A stretch of DNA of 64,000 nt from the NCBI GenBank assembly GCA_032139905.1, contig JAQJDB010000007.1, forward strand, positions 1,240,001 through 1,304,000, in the 5' to 3' direction. The notes beneath the pieces are model-generated. The model was not told where the DNA came from, did no database searches, and was given only the letters and a program-made list of their open reading frames with translations. This document shows positions 51,293 to 64,000 of the stretch, in pieces. The DNA comes from Nitrospira sp. MA-1. GTDB lineage: Bacteria > Nitrospirota > Nitrospiria > Nitrospirales > UBA8639. Both the position numbers and the translations under genes were made by a program. How positions within the stretch are numbered: position 1 is the stretch's first letter; the number at the start of each line of letters is the position of its first letter.

Positions 51293-53428
51293 ATGAGAAT
51301 TTGGCCAGGTCGATCATACCCGCTTGGTGCCACATGGGACGGGCAGGGAGTCAATTTTGCGCTGTTCTCCGAAAATGCGACTGGTGTGGATCTTTGTCTG
51401 TTTGACGATGAACTTCAGGATCGGGAAACCCATCTGATTCCTATTGAGGAACGAACGGATCAAGTCTGGCATGTATATTTACCTGAGGTGCGTCCGGGTC
51501 AACTCTATGGATACCGGGTACATGGGCCTTATGATCCTGGGGCTGGGCACCGGTTTAATCCTGCCAAGCTTCTCATCGATCCATATGCGAAGTCCTTGAC
51601 GGGGGTCGTGCGATGGTCCGATTCCATGTTTGGCTACCGTCTTGGAGATCCGGCAGGTGATCTCTCCATCGACGATCGCAATAATGCGGCAAACATTCCG
51701 AAAGGGGTGGTTGTCGACCAGGCCTTTAGCTGGGGAGGCGACCAACTTCTGAATACTCCCTGGGAGCAGACCGTGATCTATGAAATCCATGTCAAGGGTA
51801 TGACGATGCGGCATCCGGATGTTCCTGAATCACTGCGGGGAACCTATGCGGGTTTGGCGTCTCCGCCGATTATTGAATATTTGCAAGCGCTCGGAATTAC
51901 CGCCGTGGAATTGTTGCCGGTCCAACATTTTGTGAATGATCTCTATCTGAAGGAAAAGGGCCTCACCAATTATTGGGGGTACAATTCCATTGGGTATTTT
52001 GCCCCGGACATTCGGTATTCGGCTTTCCCCGGTGGCGGAGAAAAGGTTGACGAGTTCAAGTCCATGGTCAGGAAACTTCATAGTGCCGGCATCGAGGTCA
52101 TTCTCGATGTGGTCTATAACCATACAGGAGAGGGCAATCATTTCGGGCCGACCCTATCATTCCGGGGGATTGATAACGCCTCCTATTATCGCGTGTCCCC
52201 GGACAATCCACGCTATTACATGGATTACACTGGTTGTGGAAATACGCTGAATGTCCGACATCCACGGACCTTACAGCTGATCATGGACAGCTTGCGGTAT
52301 TGGGTGATCGATATGCATGTGGATGGTTTCCGTTTTGATCTGGCATCCGCACTGGCACGTGAGTTACATGATGTGGATCGACTCAGTGCCTTTTTTGACA
52401 TCATTCACCAGGATCCCGTGTTGTCGCAGGTGAAGCTGATCGCGGAACCTTGGGATCTGGGAGAAGGCGGCTATCAGGTAGGAAATTTTCCACCTGGATG
52501 GGCGGAGTGGAATGGAAAGTACCGCGATTCTATACGCCGGTATTGGAAGGGGGATGGTGGATTACTTGGGGAAGTCGCCAATCGTTGGTCCGGGAGCAGC
52601 GATCTTTATGGAGAAAGCGGGCGGCAACCCTATGCCAGTATCAATTTTGTGACAGCCCATGACGGATTTACCCTCCAGGATTTAGTGTCTTATGACCACA
52701 AGCATAATGAAGACAATCAGGAAGGAAATCGGGATGGGACCGATGACAATGATAGTTGGAATTGTGGTGTCGAAGGTACGACCGATGATCCCGCAATTCA
52801 GGAATTACGTGATCGACAGGTCCGGAATTTTTTCGCCACCCTGTTGTTATCTCAGGGAGTGCCGATGATCTGTGGTGGAGATGAATTGGGTCGCACACAG
52901 CAGGGCAATAACAATGCCTATTGCCAGGATAACGAGTTAAGTTGGGTGAATTGGAACCTAACGCGATCCCAACTCGGATTGCTGGACTTTGTGAAGCTGC
53001 TCATTGACATAAAAAAAACCCATCCGGTGTTTCAACGCCGGAGGTTTTTTCAAGGGCGCCGGGTAGAGGACTCAGAGGTAAAGGATATAGCCTGGTTCGG
53101 ATCGCATGGAAAAGAAATGTCCCATGAAGATTGGCAGATGGGGCTTCGAACCTTGGGAATTCGGTTAGCAGGGGATGCCATTGTGGAGAAAGATAGTCAG
53201 GGGCGGCCCATTGTGGATGAGACGTTTCTCGTATTGATAAACGCCCATCATGAGGATGTGGATTTTATTCTCCCTGCTCACACCAAGTCGGTGCGGTGGG
53301 AGTTGGAGTTTGATACGGCTGTGCCTGTTGACAAGAAAAGTCCCAAACATACGAAATTGCTGAAAGGAGGCCAACCCTACCATTTAGTTTCCCGAGGGCT
53401 TGCCTTGTTTCGAACTCCGAAATCCTGA
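51293..53428 (+). CDS. glgX: Glycogen debranching enzyme (GH13, GlgX type)
   Basis: Hydrolyses alpha-1,6 branches of glycogen or limit dextrin, which TreY and MalQ can then use. The 711-aa product shows an N-terminal CBM48-like domain ([22 protein letters not shown], given here as [18 protein letters not shown]), then [42 protein letters not shown] near residue 277, the nucleophile in [15 protein letters not shown] near residue 345, the acid in [16 protein letters not shown] near residue 381, and [26 protein letters not shown] near residues 451-476 (shown here only in part). Length is usual for GlgX. AGGAGAGCAG is the ribosome-binding site before ATG 51293. Confidence 0.95.
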
Positions 53429-53580
53429 CCAAAGACTCCAGTGTCACCTATCACTGGGCCTGATGGAAAAAGGATGGTGTCGAACCGAATCAGCCACCAT
53501 GCCCTCATCTGGGCAGGTAGTTTTAGGACATGTCCGGAGACATGAGCGTTTTGGTGGCACAGTACCTTTGCATCAATCCG

Positions 53581-53808
53581 TTAGACAACAAATTTTTTGC
53601 TGCGCTCGACAATGCCAGTGACCGCTTCTTTGGCATCATCCGCAAATTCTCCGGCCCGTTCGCTGGCATCTTCCATCATGTTCTTTAACTGACGACGGGT
53701 TCGGGATCCTGACTGGGGAGCCATTAACAGACCCAGTCCCGTTCCGAGAACCACTCCGACCATTAATGAAAGTCCAGCGAGTAAGACGTATCGAGTGTCG
53801 TTATCCAT
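53581..53808 (-). CDS. YtxH-domain small membrane protein
   Basis: A 75-aa protein of the YtxH type. One membrane segment is at about residues 8-28 (LLAGLSLMVGVVLGTGLGLLM), then the APQSGSRTRRQL turn and an amphipathic, acidic helix. It resembles the product at 41703 in layout but is not a close copy. Located in the glycogen/trehalose neighbourhood and transcribed on the minus strand with the DUF2934 gene upstream (77 bp gap). General stress role likely, by family. Confidence 0.75.
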   Translation of the reverse strand: MDNDTRYVLLAGLSLMVGVVLGTGLGLLMAPQSGSRTRRQLKNMMEDASERAGEFADDAKEAVTGIVERSKKFVV

Positions 53809-53885
53809 GTGAGATATCCTCCATTGTTAGAATGTCAGTTAGTAATAGGTGTCTGGTTTTCAAGAAGCAATGTTTCGATTGTCCA

Positions 53886-54218
53886 CTAAACTGGGGGGGG
53901 CTGCTGTAAAAGGATCTCACGCTCGGCTTGAAGCCAATCCTCCCAATCACTGCCATGTTGGCCTCCGCGCCGGTGATGAATTTCATAGGCGCGTTGGGCA
54001 ATGCGTTCCCGCAATTCTTCGGATAGAGCCATAGAGGGACCTGGATAGGAGGTCTGGGGATCCTGGTGTTTAGTCTGAGACATCGCTGGGCCTTTGGTGG
54101 TAGCTGATGCTACAGATTTTCCGCTGGTTTTTGAGGCCGTCTTGCCTGCAGTGGGCGTTTTTTTTGTGGTTGACGTTTTCTTCTTGACTGGTTTTTCGTC
54201 TGGTGTTTTAGGGGGCAT
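53886..54218 (-). CDS. DUF2934 domain-containing protein with basic N-terminus
   Basis: A 110-aa protein. Residues 1-50 are a low-complexity Lys/Thr/Ser/Pro stretch (KKKTSTTKKTPTAGKTASKT), histone- or linker-like. The C-terminal part (about residues 67-102) has the DUF2934 pattern: RIAQRAYEIHHRRGG, then GSDWEDWLQAEREIL, as in small proteins common in Nitrospirota, Acidobacteria and others. Function unknown; DUF2934 proteins often accompany carbohydrate metabolism and stress genes. Lies between YtxH and malQ on the minus strand. Confidence 0.75.
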   Translation of the reverse strand: MPPKTPDEKPVKKKTSTTKKTPTAGKTASKTSGKSVASATTKGPAMSQTKHQDPQTSYPGPSMALSEELRERIAQRAYEIHHRRGGQHGSDWEDWLQAEREILLQQPPPV

Positions 54219-54749
54219 GATTCGGTTCTCAGCTCCTATACTTGTCTGAATTTAGAGGAACCCCAATATGACTCATATTATAGGTTATTGTACCGGATAT
54301 AGGGCTCTTCGTCCAAGCTGCCTGGCTGGATTGAGTCATTCTGCATGGCCATTGCAGAGTTACGAAAAGAGGAAAAGGAGTTTTCCTGTGAGTGGGTGGA
54401 AATGTTCCCATGCCAAGGCCCAGGTGAGTGGTGAACGCGCAAAATTTTGATTTATGCGATCTGTTTATTTGGTAGTTAACAAAGAGGTTTGTAGAAGACA
54501 CAAGATGGATCTTCCCTTACAATGGTTAAACGCAAGGAAAACATAGGTTTGTGAATGGAGAATACCCTGCCACAGGGTATGACGGGGAAACCCTTATGAC
54601 CTGGGTTAGCGAATATGAATAATGCGGTGGATGCGTGGTTCGTCATCAAGCCACCTTCACTCGTCGGATGCAACCAACTGAGTATGAGGAAGGGTTGAGA
54701 GAGATTTTCTCACTAATAGCCATCAAAAAATATTTTTTGAGTAACAACG
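54219..54749 (+). other. Gene-free interval upstream of malQ
   Basis: A 531-bp stretch. I see a perfect 8-bp hairpin with a 3-nt loop at 54562-54580 (ATACCCTG-CCA-CAGGGTAT) and a C-A6-TA-T6-G palindrome at 54724-54739 just before the malQ start. Neither matches a riboswitch or terminator I recognise. The minus-strand frames at 54229-54501 and 54476-54673 lack support and are treated as chance. Confidence 0.45.
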
Positions 54750-56984
54750 ATGAATAACCATGAATTTGCCACGAAGCCGATTTGGCAGTTAGGTCAGCAG
54801 TATGGCATTGGATCCGTTTATCATGATGGATTAGGTGTTGAGCGACAGGTCACGGTGCCTCATCTCAGGAAAGTACTGGAAAGTATGGGGGTGAAGGCCT
54901 CATCGAAACAGGAAATTCATGACTCCCTTTCTCATGCGGAATCACAATCCTGGACACAGGTTATTGACCCAGTGGTGGTGCGGTATCCTTCTGATTCCCC
55001 GTTCGAATTACCTCTGTCTCTTCCTCTTGATGATATCAGTTTGGAGAAGGTATCCCTCACTGTCCAGGTGACGGATGAGAAGGGGGGCTGTCGGCACCTA
55101 ACACTGCGAGGTGCCGGTGGTGAGGTGAAAGCTGAGAAGGCAATCCAAGGAGTTAAATATGTCCAGGTGCATTTCCCTCTTTCGGGAAAATTTCCGCTCG
55201 GATACTTCCGTCTGTCGGTCCGTGTGAAGTTTGATTCTAAACGAACAATTGAGGCCCACACGCTACTCATTGTGGCACCCAGGAAATGTTATCTTCCATC
55301 TTCGCCTAAGCGGCCTTGGGGAATTTCTCTGCAACTCTATGGCTTACGATCCCGAAAGAATTGGGGGATTGGAGATTTTCGAGATTTAGGGGACGTCATG
55401 AAAGTGGCAGGGGCTCGTTGGGGGGTGGCCACCATCGGGGTTAATCCTCTGCATATCCCGGCGTCAGGATTAACAAGCCCCTATTCCCCTTCCAGCCGCC
55501 TTTTCTGGAGTCCCATGTATTTGAATCTGGAAGGCGTGGACGAATGGCGGACTTCGACTGGTCTTCGCCAAAAAGCCAAGGGTGCAAAATTTCAACATAC
55601 CCTCCAACAGCTTCGGGAGAGTCCACTGGTCGATTATGCAGCCGTAGGGAAATTGAAATGGACAGTCCTGGAGGAATTATTTCGAGTCTTTCGACGGCAT
55701 CATCTCCAGCCTAAAACCCTCACGGCACGTGGGAGGGCGTTTACCAGATTTGTGTCCGGCTTCCACCCGCATCTGACAATGTTTTGCACGTTTCAGGTCT
55801 TGACTGAACATCTGGAAACGGTGGCTTGGCGTACCTGGCCGAAAGCCTTTCAGCATCCCCAGTCTCCTGATGTGGAAGTTTTTCAACGATCCTATGCCAC
55901 TCGCGTACAATTTTATCAATATGTTCAATGGCTGTGTGAGTTGCAATTACAGCAACTTGATCATGTCGCGAAGAAACATTCGTTGTCTCTCCGGCTGTAT
56001 CACGATCTACCGGTTGGCATTCATCCGGATGGAGCCGACGCCTGGGTCTTTCAAGATCAGCTTGCATCGGACATCACCGTCGGTGCGCCGCCGGACTCCT
56101 TTAATCTCAATGGACAAAGTTGGGGACTGGTCGTTCCCAATCCCGTTCGATTGCGGGAAGACGGTTATCGATTTTTTAGGGAAACCTTACGGCAAAACAT
56201 GCGACATGGAGGAGTCCTCCGGATCGACCATGCTCTGGGCTTGTTTCGGATGTTCTGGGTTCCCCAAGGCGGAACAGGTAAGGATGGCGTCTATGTCAGA
56301 ACCTATGTGGATGAAATTTTGGCGATCCTGGCTTTAGAAAGTGTGCGACGAAAGGTGATGGTGGTTGGGGAAGATCTTGGTGCGGTCACTCCTGCCATTC
56401 GAGAAAAATTAGATGCGGCCGGACTTCTATCCTATCGCCTGCTATTTTTTGAACGAGAGAACGGAGGAGCTATGATCCCGCCACATGCCTATCCTGAGCA
56501 GGCGCTTGTGGCCGCCACGACACATGACCTCCCTACCCTTAAAGGTTTTTGGGCTGGACAAGATATCCTCATTAGGCAGGAAGCGGGTGTATACCTCAGG
56601 AAAATGGATATCGAGCAAGATCAGCGAGGGCGTGCTGCTGATCGGAAACGGTTATGGGAGGCTTTACATCGTGAGGGCCTCTGTTCTGCCGAGGCGATGC
56701 CCTCTAGCCTTTCGGTCGACATGATTCAAGTCCTGTACCGGTATTTAGCCAGGACACCTTCCCGCCTGCTTATCGTGCAGCTTGAAGATCTGTTGGCAGA
56801 AATTGATACACCTAATCTGCCTGGAGCACCGGACTCAGTCTATCCTTCGTGGCGGGTTCGGATTGGTCGAGACTTGACTGCCTGGCTGAAAGATCCGGCC
56901 ATCCTGCGTTTTGCTCGGGCTATGCAACGCGAGCGAAGGAAGGGTGGAGGTACGCATCGGATGTCCAGGGAAACGGTTTCATGA
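54750..56984 (+). CDS. malQ: 4-alpha-glucanotransferase (amylomaltase, GH77)
   Basis: Transfers glucan segments between alpha-1,4 chains. The 744-aa product is the long, enteric type with about 180 residues before the GH77 domain. GH77 landmarks: KRPWGISLQLYGLRS near residue 187, GVNPLHIPASGLTSPYSPSSR near residue 229, DLPVGIHPDGADAWVFQD near residue 421, FNLNGQSWGLVV near residue 453, the nucleophile in VLRIDHALGLFR near residue 490, and the acid in VVGEDLGAVTP near residue 541. The N-terminus (KPIWQLGQQYGIGSVYHD) is as in long MalQ proteins. It starts the + strand block that ends at mgtE. Confidence 0.95.
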   Translation: MNNHEFATKPIWQLGQQYGIGSVYHDGLGVERQVTVPHLRKVLESMGVKASSKQEIHDSLSHAESQSWTQVIDPVVVRYPSDSPFELPLSLPLDDISLEKVSLTVQVTDEKGGCRHLTLRGAGGEVKAEKAIQGVKYVQVHFPLSGKFPLGYFRLSVRVKFDSKRTIEAHTLLIVAPRKCYLPSSPKRPWGISLQLYGLRSRKNWGIGDFRDLGDVMKVAGARWGVATIGVNPLHIPASGLTSPYSPSSRLFWSPMYLNLEGVDEWRTSTGLRQKAKGAKFQHTLQQLRESPLVDYAAVGKLKWTVLEELFRVFRRHHLQPKTLTARGRAFTRFVSGFHPHLTMFCTFQVLTEHLETVAWRTWPKAFQHPQSPDVEVFQRSYATRVQFYQYVQWLCELQLQQLDHVAKKHSLSLRLYHDLPVGIHPDGADAWVFQDQLASDITVGAPPDSFNLNGQSWGLVVPNPVRLREDGYRFFRETLRQNMRHGGVLRIDHALGLFRMFWVPQGGTGKDGVYVRTYVDEILAILALESVRRKVMVVGEDLGAVTPAIREKLDAAGLLSYRLLFFERENGGAMIPPHAYPEQALVAATTHDLPTLKGFWAGQDILIRQEAGVYLRKMDIEQDQRGRAADRKRLWEALHREGLCSAEAMPSSLSVDMIQVLYRYLARTPSRLLIVQLEDLLAEIDTPNLPGAPDSVYPSWRVRIGRDLTAWLKDPAILRFARAMQRERRKGGGTHRMSRETVS

Positions 56985-57189
56985 ACTCTTCCCTTTTTTA
57001 AGGATGGCCAGTCAGGTTGTATACCCAATTGAATCAAATGGGGTATCTCGCCCGAATGTCAGTTGCGTGATGTCTAAGAGGGGACTATGATCAACGATTG
57101 TCAAATATTCCCATGACCATCGAATCTGGTTAGGAAAACACGGTATTTCCTCTAAGTAGGGCGATCAGGAAGAGAGGGCGATCCTTCAT

Positions 57190-58038
57190 ATGCAAGAGAA
57201 AAAACTGACGATGGCCGGATGGGTGGATGGCTTAGCCGAGGCGGTTACTGCGAGCCTGGCCCAAATAGTTGCCTATCTACCCACTTTGATTTTGGCCTGT
57301 ATGTTGTTGGGTCTCGGCTATGTGCTGGCCAGGCTGGTGTCTGTCGTGGTGACCCGCTTGCTGCAATTGATGGGGTTTGACCGGTTGCTGAGTCGAACCG
57401 CCGTGCAAACCTTGTTGGAACGATCTGGAACCAAGCAGAAAAGTTCCGAAATATTAGGGATGATTGGTTTTTGGATTATTTTCCTGGTCTTTCTCATTCA
57501 AGCGTCTGACACTCTGAGTTTAACGATGGTCTCGGATGCGTTGACGAGTATTGCCTACTATATTCCCAAAGTCGGTATTGCCGTGTTGGTGCTGGTTTTG
57601 GGTTTGATCGCCGCGAACTTTGTCCGTGAATTGATTACCATGACGTGTAGCTCGGCAGGGATTACCCACGGGACGATGGTGGCCCAGGCGGTCTATGTGG
57701 CCGTGGTCCTGTTGATCGTGGTGACGGCCATTGATGCACTCGGGATTAATACAGAATTATTGAACAATACCATTGTTATCTTATTGGCGGGATTGATCGG
57801 AGGTGCAGCGTTGTCGTTTGGGTTGGGGTCACGAACTGCCGTGGCCAATCTCATTGCTGCTCATTATTTGGGATCAATGGTTCGGGTGGGCATGACCGTA
57901 AAAATCGGGGAGAACCAGGGAACCGTGGTTGCGGTGACACCCATCTCGGTCGTGTTAGAAACCAGGGATGGACGAGTCATTGTTCCTGCTACCCAGGTCA
58001 CCGAATCAACAGCCGTCATCACCCATACTGAGCATTAG
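57190..58038 (+). CDS. MscS-like mechanosensitive channel protein
   Basis: A 282-aa inner-membrane protein with about five membrane segments: a first near residue 28 (IVAYLPTLILACMLLGLGYVLA), then pairs typical of the conserved TM-helix family (residues 90-130 and 160-215), and a C-terminal beta domain MVRVGMTVKIGENQGTVVAVTPISVVLETRDGRVIVPATQV (residues about 232-272, listed here only by extent). This layout is that of small MscS-related channels. It is downstream of malQ and 3 bp upstream of the CBS protein, so the block is likely co-transcribed. An osmotic-downshift role is inferred from family. Confidence 0.83.
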   Translation: MQEKKLTMAGWVDGLAEAVTASLAQIVAYLPTLILACMLLGLGYVLARLVSVVVTRLLQLMGFDRLLSRTAVQTLLERSGTKQKSSEILGMIGFWIIFLVFLIQASDTLSLTMVSDALTSIAYYIPKVGIAVLVLVLGLIAANFVRELITMTCSSAGITHGTMVAQAVYVAVVLLIVVTAIDALGINTELLNNTIVILLAGLIGGAALSFGLGSRTAVANLIAAHYLGSMVRVGMTVKIGENQGTVVAVTPISVVLETRDGRVIVPATQVTESTAVITHTEH

Positions 58039-58041
58039 CCT

Positions 58042-58878
58042 ATGGAACTCGAACATCGGCTGACTCTTGGGTATCTGCAGGCCCATCCCGTGGAAGCGGC
58101 TCGTCATTTGGAATCCCTCGATCCTCATGAATCGGCTTCGCTCCTGGAGGCCTTGCCCGGCGAAGAAATCGCTGGTGTGTTAGAGCATTGCTTGCCGGTG
58201 TCCACTGCCAAAATAATCGAAGAGCTTTCGAAAGATCTCGGAGCGGGTGTCTTAAGCGCCATGAATGCCACATCTGCTATCGGGGTTCTTCGGCAATTTG
58301 AGGAACCTGTTCGCCAGGACATATTAGACCGGTTGGATAATCCGATGGGGGCTACCCTTCGCCGTGCCTTGCGGTATTCACCCAACACGGCCGGAAGCTT
58401 AGCGGATCCTCAGGTGTTCACGCTTCCACCTGATATTGCCGTCGAGGAGGCTATAGACCGTATTCGTACCTATGGCCAGAAAGCCATGTACTATGTCTAT
58501 GTCATCGATCGCGATAGCAAATTGGAAGGTGTCCTCACATTGAGGCAACTGCTCATTGATCGGTCTGATCATTTAGTCGGAACATTAATGGAGACCCAGA
58601 TCACCACGTTATCAGCAGAGGCCAATCTGGAAGAAATTCTCAAACATTCTGAGTGGAGCCGGTTTCATACATTGCCGGTGGTGGATCGATGGGGAACCTT
58701 TTTTGGCGCCTTGCGATATCGAATGTTACGCAGGATTGAGAAAGATGTCGGAGGCAAGGCTCCATTGGGTTCGGTGAGTGATTCGCTCATGCAACTTTGG
58801 GAAGTGTATTCGTTAACCGGCATTCGTTTAATGACTGATGTCGCGGAAACCCTGCAAGAACGGAACAAAATAGGGTGA
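58042..58878 (+). CDS. Soluble MgtE-like protein: MgtE N-domain plus CBS pair, no transmembrane domain
   Basis: A 278-aa soluble protein similar in layout to the first part of MgtE: an MgtE N-like helical superhelix (about residues 10-120, HPVEAARHLESLDPHESASL) and two CBS domains (about residues 130-190 and 190-245), with no membrane segments. The CBS pairing segment KAMYYVYVIDRDSKLEGVLT matches DVHDVYVIDRTQKLVGRI in the next gene. In MgtE these domains sense Mg2+ and gate the channel. A free copy may regulate or bind the transporter, an inference. GTG of mgtE overlaps its stop by 4 bp. Confidence 0.82.
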   Translation: MELEHRLTLGYLQAHPVEAARHLESLDPHESASLLEALPGEEIAGVLEHCLPVSTAKIIEELSKDLGAGVLSAMNATSAIGVLRQFEEPVRQDILDRLDNPMGATLRRALRYSPNTAGSLADPQVFTLPPDIAVEEAIDRIRTYGQKAMYYVYVIDRDSKLEGVLTLRQLLIDRSDHLVGTLMETQITTLSAEANLEEILKHSEWSRFHTLPVVDRWGTFFGALRYRMLRRIEKDVGGKAPLGSVSDSLMQLWEVYSLTGIRLMTDVAETLQERNKIG

Positions 58879-60209
58879 GGGATCTGACCACGCAGACCAG
58901 CACAAAAGTTCGGGGAAGAGGTCATCTTCTCAACGAGGCGTTTTTTCAGAACCATCATGAGGAAGCCGCACGTATTCTGGAAGGGTATCCGGTGGAGGAT
59001 ATTCTGCGAGTCTTGCAAGGAACCAGTCCGAAAAATGCCGCGAATCTACTTGCCTGTATCACTCCTCCCGTCGCCGCGGATACGTTGGCGATCATGCCCA
59101 CCGATCTCCTGAAGCAGGTTGTGCCGCATCTTTCGCCGTCATTGGCTGCCTCCTTGTTTCAACGATTGGACGACGATTTGCAACGGGCGATTCTTTTCCG
59201 AGTCCCTGAACGGTATGCACAGGAAATCCGGTCCTATATGACTTACCCGGAGGAATCCGTCGGTCGTATTATGGATCCAAAATTTTTTGTGTTACAGGAG
59301 GAAAGCACGGTTCGGGAAGCCATGGTCCAGGTGCGGATCAGGGCGCAAAAGGATGTTCACGATGTCTATGTCATTGATCGAACTCAAAAGCTTGTGGGCC
59401 GGATTTCCGTTCGTGACTTGCTGCTGGTGGATCCCGAAGAAAAATTGCAGTCGGTCATGGTTCAGGATCTTCCCACCATTCATCCTTTGGAGTCACGTGA
59501 AGAGATTGTCGAACTCTTTGGTGAACGTCATTTTTTTACGATTCCCGTTGTGGATTTGGACAAACGGCTGTTAGGCGTTGTCCGAAACGAAGCCATTATT
59601 AAAGCCAGTCAGGAAGATGCGAGTGCGGACCTACTCACGATGGTGGGGGCGAATAAGGATGAGCGTGCGCTTTCCCCTGTATGGTTTTCTGTCCGAAAAC
59701 GATTGCCGTGGTTGCAGCTCAACCTGTTAACGGCATTTGCGGCTGCCTTTGTGGTGGGAATGTTCGAAGGAACGATTGCCAAATTTACGGCCCTGGCCGT
59801 CCTGCTTCCGGTTGTCGCCGGGCAATCAGGCAATACCGGGGCTCAATCTCTCGCTGTAGTCATTCGCGGGTTGGCTTTACGGGATATCCGACCATCCCAA
59901 TGGCTCCGGGTCAGTGGAAAAGAAGTCTATGTCGCATTTTTAAATGGGCTGGCCGTCTCTGCCACAGCCTGTTTCGCCGTGGGCTTATGGAGCCGGTCGC
60001 TGGGCATGGTCTTCATCATCGGATTGTCCATGATTATTTCGATGGTCATTGCCGGGTTATCCGGCGCGATCATTCCCATCGCTTTGAAGGCACTCAAACA
60101 GGATCCGGCGCAATCCTCCTCCATTGTGTTAACGACGATCACCGATGTGGTCGGGTTTTTTAGTTTCTTAGGGCTTGCCACCTTGCTTTCAAGTTTGTTG
60201 GAAACTTGA
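58875..60209 (+). CDS. mgtE: Magnesium transporter MgtE
   Basis: A homodimeric Mg2+ channel of the inner membrane. The 444-aa product has an N-terminal helical domain (about residues 15-125), two CBS domains (about residues 135-255), a linker helix and five membrane segments starting at about residue 275. The pore landmarks PVVAGQSGNTGAQ near residues 314-326 and TTITDVVGFFSFLGLA near residue 420 match the Mg2+ site of the family. GTG 58875 overlaps the upstream stop. Length is standard. Mg2+ binding residues of the N domain are partly conserved and cannot be checked in detail by eye. Confidence 0.94.
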   Translation: MRDLTTQTSTKVRGRGHLLNEAFFQNHHEEAARILEGYPVEDILRVLQGTSPKNAANLLACITPPVAADTLAIMPTDLLKQVVPHLSPSLAASLFQRLDDDLQRAILFRVPERYAQEIRSYMTYPEESVGRIMDPKFFVLQEESTVREAMVQVRIRAQKDVHDVYVIDRTQKLVGRISVRDLLLVDPEEKLQSVMVQDLPTIHPLESREEIVELFGERHFFTIPVVDLDKRLLGVVRNEAIIKASQEDASADLLTMVGANKDERALSPVWFSVRKRLPWLQLNLLTAFAAAFVVGMFEGTIAKFTALAVLLPVVAGQSGNTGAQSLAVVIRGLALRDIRPSQWLRVSGKEVYVAFLNGLAVSATACFAVGLWSRSLGMVFIIGLSMIISMVIAGLSGAIIPIALKALKQDPAQSSSIVLTTITDVVGFFSFLGLATLLSSLLET

Positions 60210-60265
60210 TCATTGATCGGTTGGGGGCGGTGTCCGCTTCATCTCTGCTCCACCACTCCCATTCC

Positions 60266-60283
60266 GCCTCGGGAGGGGCTTTT
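60266..60283 (+). terminator. Candidate terminator after mgtE
   Basis: GCCTC-GGGA-GGGGC hairpin (one T-G pair) directly followed by TTTT, in the 170-bp gap between mgtE and the CBS gene. Short, moderate quality. Confidence 0.4.
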
Positions 60284-60379
60284 CATTCCAGGAAAACTTC
60301 TGATTGCCTACTCATTAATGGTAGGGTAGTATCGTTTTTTCGCTCATTTTTATCTTAATCATTGAGGAGAGGAGGCTTT

Positions 60380-61147
60380 ATGGAATCATCCAAGACGTCT
60401 AAAACGGATCGAGTGGGAACGTTGGATCAAGATATTTCTCGAATTCGTAAGCAGTTAGAGATCATAAAAAGATTTCTGATAGATGAGCCTTCTCCCGCAT
60501 CCTTGAACGAATTTGATTCGACCACGGAAGACATTCTCGCCGATGCATTCGGAAGTTCTTCCCCGCTATTAGATACGTATGACTATGCTCAACTTGGGGA
60601 GGCAGCGGGGCTCATGAATCTTCCAGAAGGAGCGCCGGAAGGCACCACCCATCAATCCCAACGCGAAACGGTCCGGCAACGTCAGCGAGTTTTGGAAAGC
60701 GGTATTGCCGATCTTGAGGCCAGGAGGGCCTCTCTCTCACAGGAATCCAGGAAACGGAAAGGTTCCGGTCCAAACGTTGCGGACTATATGGCAAAAACTG
60801 TTCGATCTGTATCGCTTGATGCCACCTTGCAGGAAGTCGGACAATGCTTGCAAAAATGGAAAATCGGTTCCGTATTGGTTCAAAATGGGGATGAGTTCTT
60901 GGGATATATCACTGAAACAGAATTGACTCGAGAGGTTGTTGCATCCGGAACAGACCCCGTGACAACTACGGTGAAGACCTGCATGCGTGAACCGTTAGTC
61001 ACCATTGAGACCAGTGATCCAATTGTGGAAGCTGTGCGCCTGATGAAAGAAAAAGCGACACGCCATCTTGCGGTCACAGAAAGTAACCGGATCGTCGGGG
61101 TCGTCTCCGTTTCGGATATTATCCGGTATTATTCCGGGGTTAAATAA
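60380..61147 (+). CDS. CBS-pair protein with N-terminal helical region
   Basis: A 255-aa cytoplasmic protein. The first 135 residues are helical and polar with two likely coiled-coil parts (DQDISRIRKQLEIIKRFLID and QRETVRQRQRVLESGIADLEARR). The C-terminal half is a CBS pair: VADYMAKTVRSVSLDATLQEVGQ and MREPLVTIETSDPIVEAVRLM, followed by HLAVTESNRIVGVVSVSDIIRYY. CBS pairs bind adenosine nucleotides or Mg2+. ATG 60380 follows a GGAGAGGAGG site; the frame opens earlier at TTG 60362. The target is unknown. Confidence 0.8.
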   Translation: MESSKTSKTDRVGTLDQDISRIRKQLEIIKRFLIDEPSPASLNEFDSTTEDILADAFGSSSPLLDTYDYAQLGEAAGLMNLPEGAPEGTTHQSQRETVRQRQRVLESGIADLEARRASLSQESRKRKGSGPNVADYMAKTVRSVSLDATLQEVGQCLQKWKIGSVLVQNGDEFLGYITETELTREVVASGTDPVTTTVKTCMREPLVTIETSDPIVEAVRLMKEKATRHLAVTESNRIVGVVSVSDIIRYYSGVK

Positions 61148-61432
61148 TCGTTGCTTGAGTAGAGACTCTCCCTCGCCTTCTAACCTCTGGTTGCGATGCT
61201 CTCCTATTCGGGGAAACACATGCTTTTTTGCCGTCGTGTTCCTTGAGGAGGGCGTCACCCTCATTTGAAAAAATCTTCGATCCGCTCATATAAAAAAAGC
61301 TTGAGGATGGGGATGGCATACAGTGAAGAGGGTGTAAGAATAAATTACCTGATGGATTATTGGGGACATTCGGGGATTTACCCCATCGCAGATTCTATTC
61401 CGGGAATGCAGTACAGGCATCTAGAACTAGTC

Positions 61433-62929
61433 ATGGGGATGAAAATGGGCAATAAAAAGAGGAAGGTGAGGGGTCATTGGTTCCGACAGGTCTTTAGTCC
61501 GGCCTTGGCGATGTGGATCGGTTGTGCCGGTGTTTTTGCCATGAGTATCGGAATGGAGGGAACTCTGGGGTGGGCGGGCGAACCATCAGAGTCGGCCATA
61601 GAACGAACGGAGGAAAGGACCGTAAAGCAAGGAGGATTCGAAGACGTGGCTCAGGCGGTGACCCCGTCTGTGGTCAATATCACCGCAACCATTGATATTG
61701 TTGATTCTCGGGGTGGAGGCGTGCCACTCCCGTTTAGAGGTTTTGGTGAGGGCCAACCGCCACCGGGTATTCGCAAACGTCAAAAGGGTTCAGGGTCAGG
61801 AGTCATCCTGTCTTCCGACGGATATATTGTGACCAATAATCATGTAATTGCCGAAAGCCGTGATCTCCTTGTTACTCTTCCAGATGCGCGTGAATTTTCA
61901 GCCAAGGTGGTTGGTGCGGATCCGGAAACAGATTTGGCGGTTATTAAAATTCAGGCTGAAAACCTTCCAGTGATTCCCTGGGGAAATTCCTCCTCGTTAG
62001 CTGTTGGCCAATATGTACTGGCTGTTGGCAACCCGTTTGGTCTGAATTCAACGGTGACGCTTGGTATAGTCAGCGCTCTTGACCGAGGAGGCATGGGGTT
62101 AGCCCGCTTTGAAGATTTCATTCAGACCGATGCGGCAATTAACCCTGGGAATTCAGGTGGAGCCTTGGTGAACACACGGGGAGAATTAGTTGGCATTAAT
62201 ACGGCAATAGCCTCTCAAAATGGAGGGTATCAGGGGGTGGGGTTCGCTGTGCCCTCTTCATTAGCAAGACCTGTGTTAGAGGAATTGATCAATAATGGAA
62301 AGATTGTCCGAGGATATTTAGGTCTGGGGGTGCAGGAAATGACGATGGAGTTGGCTCCGTGGTTTGGCCTGAAAAACAGTGAAGGGGCGCTAGTGACCGA
62401 TGTGGTTCCTGGTGGACCCGCCGATAAAGCCGGCATACACCGGGGAGAGGTGATTCTTCAGTACCAAGGGAAACACGTGAAAGATGGACAGATGCTTTTG
62501 GAGGGAGTGACACGTGCCAATATTGGAGAACAGATCGAATTGGGTATTATCGAGAATGGAAAAGAGCGTAAAGTAAGAATGATCATCCGTGAGCAACCAC
62601 CGATCCCTCAGGTGCGGCGTATTCGAACGCCTCGGGTGGAGCATCCGCTTGCCGGAGTGGAAGTGGCCGATGTCGATGAGGCGGCCATTCAGGAATATGA
62701 GTTGAATCCTGTCACCAAGGGAGCTGTGGTCTCATTCCTTGAAGAAGGGTGTGCTGCTGAATTAGCGGGGATCATAGAAGGAGATGTCATTATTGAATTG
62801 AATATGCATTCCGTGGAATCCGTCAGGGAGTATTCCTCATGGTTTAATCGGCTTAAAAAGGAACAAGCGTTACTGGTGGTGCTTGTCCGTTCTTCGCGTC
62901 ATTTGTATGTGGTGGTGAAATCTTCCTGA
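61433..62929 (+). CDS. DegP/DegQ-type periplasmic serine protease
   Basis: A trypsin-like protease/chaperone of the periplasm with two PDZ domains. From ATG 61433 the product is 498 aa, with a signal peptide (residues about 14-40), the trypsin domain with catalytic H137 (TNNHVIA), D167 (ETDLAVIK) and S241 (NPGNSGGAL), PDZ1 (about residues 280-370; GYLGLGVQE and VVPGGPADKAGIHRGEVI) and PDZ2 (about residues 395-495). The frame opens at TTG 61265, but the extra 56 residues are not conserved-like and precede the signal peptide, so the later start is preferred (ATG 61439 and 61445 are alternatives). Q-linker and triad are intact. Confidence 0.94.
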   Translation: MGMKMGNKKRKVRGHWFRQVFSPALAMWIGCAGVFAMSIGMEGTLGWAGEPSESAIERTEERTVKQGGFEDVAQAVTPSVVNITATIDIVDSRGGGVPLPFRGFGEGQPPPGIRKRQKGSGSGVILSSDGYIVTNNHVIAESRDLLVTLPDAREFSAKVVGADPETDLAVIKIQAENLPVIPWGNSSSLAVGQYVLAVGNPFGLNSTVTLGIVSALDRGGMGLARFEDFIQTDAAINPGNSGGALVNTRGELVGINTAIASQNGGYQGVGFAVPSSLARPVLEELINNGKIVRGYLGLGVQEMTMELAPWFGLKNSEGALVTDVVPGGPADKAGIHRGEVILQYQGKHVKDGQMLLEGVTRANIGEQIELGIIENGKERKVRMIIREQPPIPQVRRIRTPRVEHPLAGVEVADVDEAAIQEYELNPVTKGAVVSFLEEGCAAELAGIIEGDVIIELNMHSVESVREYSSWFNRLKKEQALLVVLVRSSRHLYVVVKSS

Positions 62930-63074
62930 AAGAATCAGGCTGAGAAGGGTTTCCGGAAATTCACGGATTTATCAGAGGAGCTTTTGTCTGCGGCATTTAA
63001 ACTCTTTGTCCAAGGGTTCTTTATTTTTGGCCGGGGATGTTTGAAGATTCCTGGTTGAAAATAAGAGCACCGGA

Positions 63075-63719
63075 TCAAAATGGAGCGATCAAATCGGTAA
63101 ACTCAAAGTCGAAAAAAAACAGGATGGTATATTCGTTGAAGTAGGTTGACCCTTGGAACCAGGGAGTGGAGCGAACAAATTGTCCCGTCGCCGTTTCGTA
63201 AATATCCAGGCGGAATCGGGAATATCCCGACAATTTTTGGGATGCGTATATCGCAATCTCGGGCAAGGCAATTGGGAGGAGTGCACTCTGTATTGGAGGT
63301 AACCCGAACAAGGAGGACCGTTGCTCGACTCCTAGACCCTGAACAAGGATGTGGATTCGGTACTTGGCTTTAGCTGGATCCGCAACGATTTTCAGTCCGC
63401 TTTCTCCCAGCCAACCCCCAATTGCACCCTTGAAAAAACCTTGGGCAACGGGCAATCCATCTGCCACGTGCAATCCAGAGATATCGAGACTTACCGTCTC
63501 TCCAGGGGTTAAGAGGATGGGCATGGTGTTCTCTCCATGCAGACTTCGCTCCACAGCTTGAGCCATGAGGAGTTGTTGGACTGCAGTTGGCGATTCAGGA
63601 AGGGGTATGGCATTCATGGCACCGCAGCCGGTCAGTATTCCCACTAACAGGAGAACTGATAGAATCCATAGCATGGACCTATTCCACTGACGTACTTCGG
63701 TTAACCAAATCACTTTCAC
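63075..63719 (-). CDS. Lipoprotein of unknown function, 214 aa
   Basis: No named family. The N-terminus has a signal peptide with the lipobox GILTGC (cysteine 32). The mature part is about 180 residues with GETVSLDISGLHVADG, a strand-rich core, and an aromatic C-terminal end (YFNEYTILFFFDFEFTDL). It has many hydrophobic and Gly residues, like lipoproteins of LPS or outer-membrane assembly, but no motif I can name. It is convergent with the protease gene, 145 bp apart. Confidence 0.68.
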   Translation of the reverse strand: MKVIWLTEVRQWNRSMLWILSVLLLVGILTGCGAMNAIPLPESPTAVQQLLMAQAVERSLHGENTMPILLTPGETVSLDISGLHVADGLPVAQGFFKGAIGGWLGESGLKIVADPAKAKYRIHILVQGLGVEQRSSLFGLPPIQSALLPIALPEIAIYASQKLSGYSRFRLDIYETATGQFVRSTPWFQGSTYFNEYTILFFFDFEFTDLIAPF

Positions 63720-63794
63720 CTCTTTTTTGTTAAGACCAGAGAAATATGGGAGTCAACTTCAAGGAGAACAGGTGTTCGATACGGCCTCGTTAGT

Positions 63795-64000
63795 TTAGGG
63801 AGCAGATCCTGGGGAATTAATCATTGAGTCGGATTCCTTTGTCGGGGCAGATGGAATGGACGGATTCGGAGGTGCCGCAAGGGCAGGGTTCATCTCCTTG
63901 TGTTTGGTGACCCGAAGCAAAGTGGGATCGTGAATAAAAGGTTCGTATTTCGGCACGTCTAATGTTACCAGATCACGTTCCTCAATAAGGAGGTCGATCT
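63795..64000 (-). CDS. Unidentified C-terminal fragment, runs off the right edge
   Basis: The minus strand is open from the window edge to a TAA at 63795-63797, giving about 67 C-terminal residues; the start lies beyond base 64000. Seen: an IDLLIEERDLVTLDVPKYEP segment, then TLLRVTKHKEM and a proline- and serine-rich tail (NPALAAPPNPSIPSAP) ending in NSPGSAP. No family is recognised. It lies 75 bp upstream of the lipoprotein gene on the same strand, so the two may be co-transcribed. Confidence 0.6.
   Translation of the reverse strand, partial: IDLLIEERDLVTLDVPKYEPFIHDPTLLRVTKHKEMNPALAAPPNPSIPSAPTKESDSMINSPGSAP

Follow-up and report, generated by a model that had tools for sequence, protein, structure and literature searches.

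A conserved three-gene cassette in Nitrospira encodes an MgtE and an MgtE-like cytosolic companion, both lacking canonical Mg2+-sensing residues, behind an MscS-like gene

Gene order and domain content of the locus

Using a 64,000-nucleotide stretch of the Nitrospira sp. MA-1 genome (hereafter the window), we identified three consecutive genes on the plus strand. The first (57190–58038) encodes a minimal MscS-like membrane protein of 282 aa, made up of an MS_channel_1st_1 region and a beta-domain-like end. The second begins 3 bp further on with an ATG codon (58042–58878) and encodes a 278-aa protein with MgtE_N and CBS domains and without a membrane domain, which we call the companion. The third gene (58875–60209, GTG start) encodes its partner, a 444-aa channel of the MgtE family with an intact pore and degenerate Mg2+-sensing sites, and its start codon overlaps the TGA stop of the companion gene by 4 bp in the sequence GTGA (58875–58878). 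The open reading frames and the Pfam matches thus bear out the initial annotation, which had described the upstream gene as an MgtE N-domain plus CBS protein whose stop overlaps the mgtE start. No riboswitch or Mg2+ leader came to light, Rfam at gathering score returning 0 matches over 52000–64000, and a scan for promoters and terminators gave a result no better than shuffled sequences. About 170 bp downstream of mgtE the window also encodes a second CBS-pair protein (60380–61147, plus strand), the N-terminal part of which matches 0 families above cut-off.

The partner matches the MgtE membrane domain (109.2 bits), CBS (57.6 bits) and MgtE_N (48.8 bits), all three above cut-off, and passes the TIGR00400 model with 249.4 bits against a cut-off of 232.75, which the companion does not reach (81.1 bits). 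The companion contains an MgtE N domain at residues 15–115 (58084–58386; PF03448, 56.3 bits), seen as helices in its AlphaFold model, followed by a CBS pair at residues 118–233 (58393–58740), of which the first repeat is matched by PF00571 (45.9 bits) and the second, absent from the Pfam matches, is visible in the model and in structural matches to MgtE cytosolic domains. Pfam gave no match in the companion to the MgtE membrane domain (PF01769). Companion and partner align over 221 aa without a gap (27% identity, E 3e-23), so that their likeness is not due to chance. The MscS-like protein matches the conserved TM helix family PF05552 (72.5 bits, cut-off 22) and ends just past its beta-domain-like part, which falls short of the PF00924 cut-off of 20.2 in the window (19.6 bits), passes it in two other loci (L097, 23.3 bits; L158, 20.4 bits) and gives no match in a further one (L161). 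It also has a G/A-rich segment ending in N, which resembles the MscS pore helix.

The AlphaFold model of the companion, built from 41 sequences, has a mean pLDDT of 82.8 and a pTM of 0.73. In a structure search, model residues 1–239 matched MgtE cytosolic domains with Z scores of 17–18 (best matches 2oux, Z 18.4, rmsd 12.3 over 232 residues, and 2yvy, Z 17.9); the rmsd is 12–13 Å for the whole and 2.2 Å for the CBS pair alone (3kxr). The companion is thus predicted, on the basis of this model, to have the N domain and CBS pair fold of the cytosolic half of MgtE. The remaining tail, unmatched in the search, is modeled as one long C-terminal helix at residues 245–277 (58774–58872; block pLDDT 50–63), in the place of the plug helix and membrane part. 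The initial annotation had the gene stop where the membrane part would begin, and while a membrane domain is indeed missing, the protein continues into this extra conserved helix at residues of about 245–277.

The tail carries an L-x-E-x-Y motif (LWEVY in the window companion, residues 252–256, 58795–58809), with L or M at 252 in 66, E254 in 65 and Y256 in 64 of the 67 aligned cassette companions. Its hydropathy maximum over 19 residues is 0.5–1.55. As a rule of thumb this is less than expected for a membrane span, and for this reason we read the tail as an amphipathic docking helix. An AlphaFold model of a read-through fusion of the MscS-like protein and the companion (alignment of 43 rows, eight of them fused) reached a pTM of 0.38 and left docking unsupported, single copies being a poor proxy for oligomers; the tail scored worse in this fusion (blocks of 44–51) than in the companion alone.

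Conservation, distribution and descent of the cassette

Our search for this family yielded 80 distinct companions, of which 71 have an MscS-like gene upstream and an mgtE gene downstream, the latter being a fragment in two cases (L058, at a contig end, and L034, where it is split). Since the loci were gathered by searching for the family, 71 of 80 describes companions and not genomes; the set also leaves out sequences scoring about as well as MgtE and, apart from six loci that were kept by hand, open frames longer than 330 aa. The conservation of the pair in related genomes, which the initial annotation had proposed as a check, is therefore confirmed, and the conserved unit that the sequences delineate is larger than the pair first noticed, comprising MscS-like, companion and MgtE genes. 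Of the nine remaining companions, seven lie at contig ends, five of these with an MscS-like gene upstream, and two are true exceptions. One of the exceptions, L041 (G030:C47, 5490–6362, plus strand), is a lone companion homologue with neither an MgtE nor an MscS-like neighbor. The other, L042 (G024:C5, 2785–4107 and 4182–4955, minus strand), is a degenerate companion/MgtE pair without an MscS-like gene, whose MgtE has lost its pore Asp, along with the GNTG-like motif and the Mg2+ ligands; this pair possibly kept a non-transport role. Both exceptions are without an MscS-like neighbor, and in both the companion has no L-x-E-x-Y tail.

When the companion was used as query against its own genome, five places were found: the two genes of the window, a further companion (40%) on another contig together with its own MgtE, and a standalone MgtE. 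With the MscS-like protein as query only two places were found, one per cassette.

Overall, the cassette is spread across Nitrospirota and Gemmatimonadota, and four other phyla have it on rare occasions. The genomes searched were drawn evenly from phyla, phylum labels were taken from the record titles of the center genome of each sample, and the thresholds, which vary by phylum, miss divergent members. Matches were found in 13 of 245 Nitrospirota genomes (E ≤ 1e-45) and in 11 of 200 genomes of the Gemmatimonadetes phylum, that of L096 (1e-38). With a broader alignment (A2) at 1e-53, the phylum of the L100 genome gave 3 of 297, these being two cassettes and one standalone short MgtE; that of L104 (Desulfobacterales) gave 2 of 198, both in the same genomes as matches from the L100 phylum; and that of L120 (Phycisphaerales) gave 4 of 199, comprising one full cassette, one MscS-like gene and companion at a contig end, and two standalone short MgtEs. 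At the same threshold and with the same alignment, single matches were found in the phyla of L109 (Anaerolineales, 1 of 201, a companion with an apparent frame break) and L124 (Bacteroidia, 1 of 198, a full cassette). The L058 companion lies on a 3.3-kb contig of a bin titled Verrucomicrobia and shares 84% identity with the window companion, a Nitrospirota protein; this contig is probably mis-binned. At L167 (16–2924, minus strand), a cassette from the L109 phylum that the above limits keep outside the set of 80, a long open frame mimics a fusion of companion and MgtE; the frame suggests a break inside the companion, which may be a sequencing error or real, and we did not score it as a fusion. 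A literature search, with subscription papers mostly outside its reach, found no account of the companion or of the cassette.

We examined descent with a maximum-likelihood tree built from 103 rows and 217 columns of the cytosolic region, in which four branches are long (L042_M, L005_R, L159_S and L152_M). All 36 companions form one clade with support of 100/99, the L041 and L042 companions being sisters, and a single branch separates all 35 partner MgtEs from the rest (93/87). Another branch sets companions and partners together apart from the ordinary, PRC-type and short MgtEs; its support of 98/66 (not starred) is not decisive. The initial annotation had proposed a tandem duplication followed by loss of the channel domain. 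Homology of the two proteins and their joint branch agree with such a duplication and domain loss, which was not a local event, because companions of several phyla form one clade. A recent local tandem duplication is thereby ruled out, and the tree places the duplication as an old one, before the cassette spread over phyla.

The companion is under purifying selection. Of seven comparisons tried, two had unsaturated dS, and these gave dN/dS values of 0.034 and 0.054; W205 and G163 are invariant in 67 of 67 aligned cassette companions. Conservation and dN/dS rule out chance or an annotation artefact. Comparing distance matrices between the three proteins gave correlations of 0.90–0.95, values that shared descent alone can give.

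Mg2+ ligands, pore and nucleotide site

Ordinary MgtE is the textbook case of a Mg2+ channel that gates itself. In this dimer, joined at its cytosolic domain, cytosolic Mg2+ binds the protein's own N and CBS domains and the pore shuts. We took the Mg2+ ligand residues of the Thermus thermophilus protein (TtMgtE) from PMC5882242 and its ATP contacts from PMC5529423; gating is treated in PMC8104411. We transferred this numbering to the cassette proteins, all 15 TtMgtE residues fitting the reference stretch, and counted residues in 34 representative cassettes (companions <80% identical, L041 and L042 left out) and in 23 non-cassette MgtEs, TtMgtE among them. An earlier count, made over 54 near-redundant cassettes, covered the eight most frequent residues of each column.

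This analysis demonstrated that acidic residues are scarce at most of the cytosolic ligand positions of both cassette proteins. At E59 an acid is present in 3 of 34 companions and 3 of 34 partners, compared with 17 of 23 non-cassette MgtEs; at D91 in 10 and 1, compared with 23 of 23; at D95 in none of either, compared with 20; and at D226 in 7 and 0, compared with 16. For the columns from about 247 onward, where the companion alignment is not reliable, the corresponding counts (companions, partners, non-cassette MgtEs) are 1, 19 and 22 at D247, 0, 4 and 23 at D250, 6, 1 and 22 at E258, and 2, 25 and 23 at D259. A second alignment, with a profile built from non-cassette MgtEs only, gave the same pattern of ligand loss. 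In the window companion, E59, D91, D95, D226, D247 and D250 correspond to G45, T77, G81, R207, M228 and R231 (the last two in the unreliably aligned columns), and in the window partner E59, D91, D95 and D226 correspond to N57, S89, S93 and H219, and D247, D250, E258 and D259 to A240, K243, A251 and D252. By their residues, therefore, neither companion nor partner looks like a canonical Mg2+ sensor. Some metal response of the cassette proteins may persist, with acids left at D91 or D226 in companions, some of these from other phyla, and at D247 or D259 in partners.

The pore of the partner is retained. D418 and D432 are present in 34 of 34 partners (22 and 21 of 23 non-cassette MgtEs), the window residues being D410 and D424, the latter (60144–60146) corresponding to the Asp of the Mg1 site, and a GNTGAQS-type motif is conserved.

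The nucleotide site differs between the two proteins. Companions have Y170 in 29, R or K at 187 in 29 and an aromatic residue at 227 in 26 of 34, and the ribose-contacting Asp, D188, in 4, mostly with E or Q otherwise; partners have Y170 in 0 and D188 in 22 of 34. The window companion has Y151, R168, Q169 and F208 at Y170, R187, D188 and F227, and thus retains three of the four. In PMC5529423, TtMgtE F227A loses ATP binding and D188A behaves about as wild type in a protease assay, and since it is D188 that companions lack, they may still bind nucleotide, as far as these residues can tell.

The standalone MgtE of the same genome (L036, G000:C7, 3003–4352, minus strand) has nearly intact Mg2+ ligands (D88, D220, D241, D244, E252, D253 and pore D426, with V92 in the place of D95), and its Y170, R187 and D188 positions are I164, E181 and R182, the reverse of the cassette companion.

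Possible roles of the companion and comparison with known systems

Because both copies of the cytosolic domain lack the usual Mg2+-sensing residues, our findings suggest that the cassette MgtE is under another kind of control, one that has not been described so far. We give about an even chance to the three genes forming a cation-channel unit in which Mg2+ autogating of MgtE has been replaced and the companion serves as a dedicated regulatory subunit. From the gene order, the ligand loss and the tail conservation seen in the sequences, we infer how such a unit might assemble, what signal it might receive and what the MscS-like protein might do. The companion would pair through its N and CBS domains with the cytosolic domain of MgtE, its tail helix would dock on a membrane partner, either the membrane part of MgtE or the MscS-like protein, and it would govern channel open probability according to a signal other than Mg2+ at the canonical sites. 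A plausible signal would be an adenine nucleotide in the companion CBS pocket, membrane tension relayed by the MscS-like protein, or both. Ordinary Mg2+-gated uptake would be separate from this unit, because the standalone MgtE of the genome retains its Mg2+ ligands. As a counterpoint, the three genes may co-occur from shared regulation only. A more far-reaching version, which we consider rather unlikely, is that all three proteins form one heteromeric complex, with an MgtE pore free of Mg2+ autoinhibition and gated by the companion, which would relay nucleotide status and, via its tail helix, tension sensed by the MscS-like protein; if true, this would be a tension- or energy-gated Mg2+ channel.

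Other roles have to be weighed against a regulatory subunit of MgtE. The companion could instead serve the MscS-like protein, as its cytosolic gate or as an adaptor, with MgtE merely co-transcribed for joint ion homeostasis. This would fit an MscS-like protein that stops just past its beta domain, without the C-terminal vestibule of MscS, the absence of the tail from companions that lack an MscS-like neighbor, and standalone short MgtEs (L160, L163 and L164) that have neither a companion nor an MscS-like gene in the examined stretch. However, the companion is a paralogue of the partner's own cytosolic domain, which points to MgtE, the AlphaFold fusion shows no confident docking, the tail-less L042 companion also adjoins an MgtE without the pore Asp, so that the MscS-like protein is not singled out, and the two tail-less cases are sisters and count as one event; we therefore regard this role as doubtful. 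A cassette MgtE that carries another cation or works outward, with the companion as part of a change in selectivity or assembly and not in gating, would account for regulatory sites rebuilt in both proteins beside a standalone MgtE that keeps its Mg2+ ligands, but the conserved pore Asp and GNTGAQS-type motif make it quite unlikely.

The initial annotation had favored a free sensor of Mg2+, and of nucleotides, that tunes MgtE gating by mixed assembly. The homology of the companion to the Mg2+-sensing part of MgtE and the conserved gene pair speak for it; against it, the window companion has lost the canonical cytosolic ligands, and so, for the most part, have the companions of the 34 cassettes and the partner MgtE, whereas all 5 soluble PRC-MgtE_N-CBS proteins compared have an acid at both D95 and D250, and we now consider such a sensor improbable. 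Least credible of all is a decaying duplicate without function, for which the two lone or degenerate forms, L041 and L042, might be cited, and which is at odds with dN/dS values of 0.034–0.054, with the invariant W205 and G163, and with retention across phyla.

The cassette is a conserved branch in which the pore has been kept, the ligands discarded and a second copy of the regulatory module placed in a gene of its own, nearly always next to an MscS-like gene; it would show that bacteria gate MgtE by other signals as well. The cassette is also a natural comparison for what the cytosolic domain contributes to MgtE. The standalone short MgtEs at L160 (1345–2796), L163 (922–2217) and L164 (907–2208) have lost most N/CBS Mg2+ ligands and retain the pore and most of the ATP site; by these residues they appear to be one more branch of MgtE that does not sense Mg2+ in the canonical way.

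Among known systems, the MgtE of Thermus thermophilus (TIGR00400) shares with the partner the N domain, CBS pair, membrane domain and pore Asp, and with the companion the fold of its cytosolic half. Unlike the Thermus protein, both cassette proteins have lost most of the cytosolic Mg2+ ligands, and the cassette adds a separate cytosolic subunit with a new C-terminal helix and an MscS-like gene. Soluble MgtE_N-CBS proteins are likewise encoded beside a metal transporter gene in the case of the PRC-barrel/MgtE_N/CBS proteins at L100 (4482–6898) and L112 (406–2951), which lie directly upstream of Nramp genes. These proteins differ from the companion in that they have a PRC barrel, mostly keep the Mg2+ ligands, lack the companion-type tail, have Nramp as partner and fall among ordinary MgtEs in the tree; in the companion Pfam gave no match to a PRC barrel, and its neighbors are MscS-like and MgtE genes, not Nramp. 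The L112 PRC-type proteins, with canonical ligands kept, may serve a metal transporter as genuine Mg2+ sensors in soluble form. In gene content, the cassette resembles the cmaX-cfrX-cmpX operon of Pseudomonas aeruginosa, which, as described in PMC7641640, combines a Mg2+-channel homologue (the CorA-type CmaX), the MscS-like CmpX and a third gene; it differs in having CorA in place of the MgtE of the cassette, and in that its third gene is small, encoding a protein of 84 aa.
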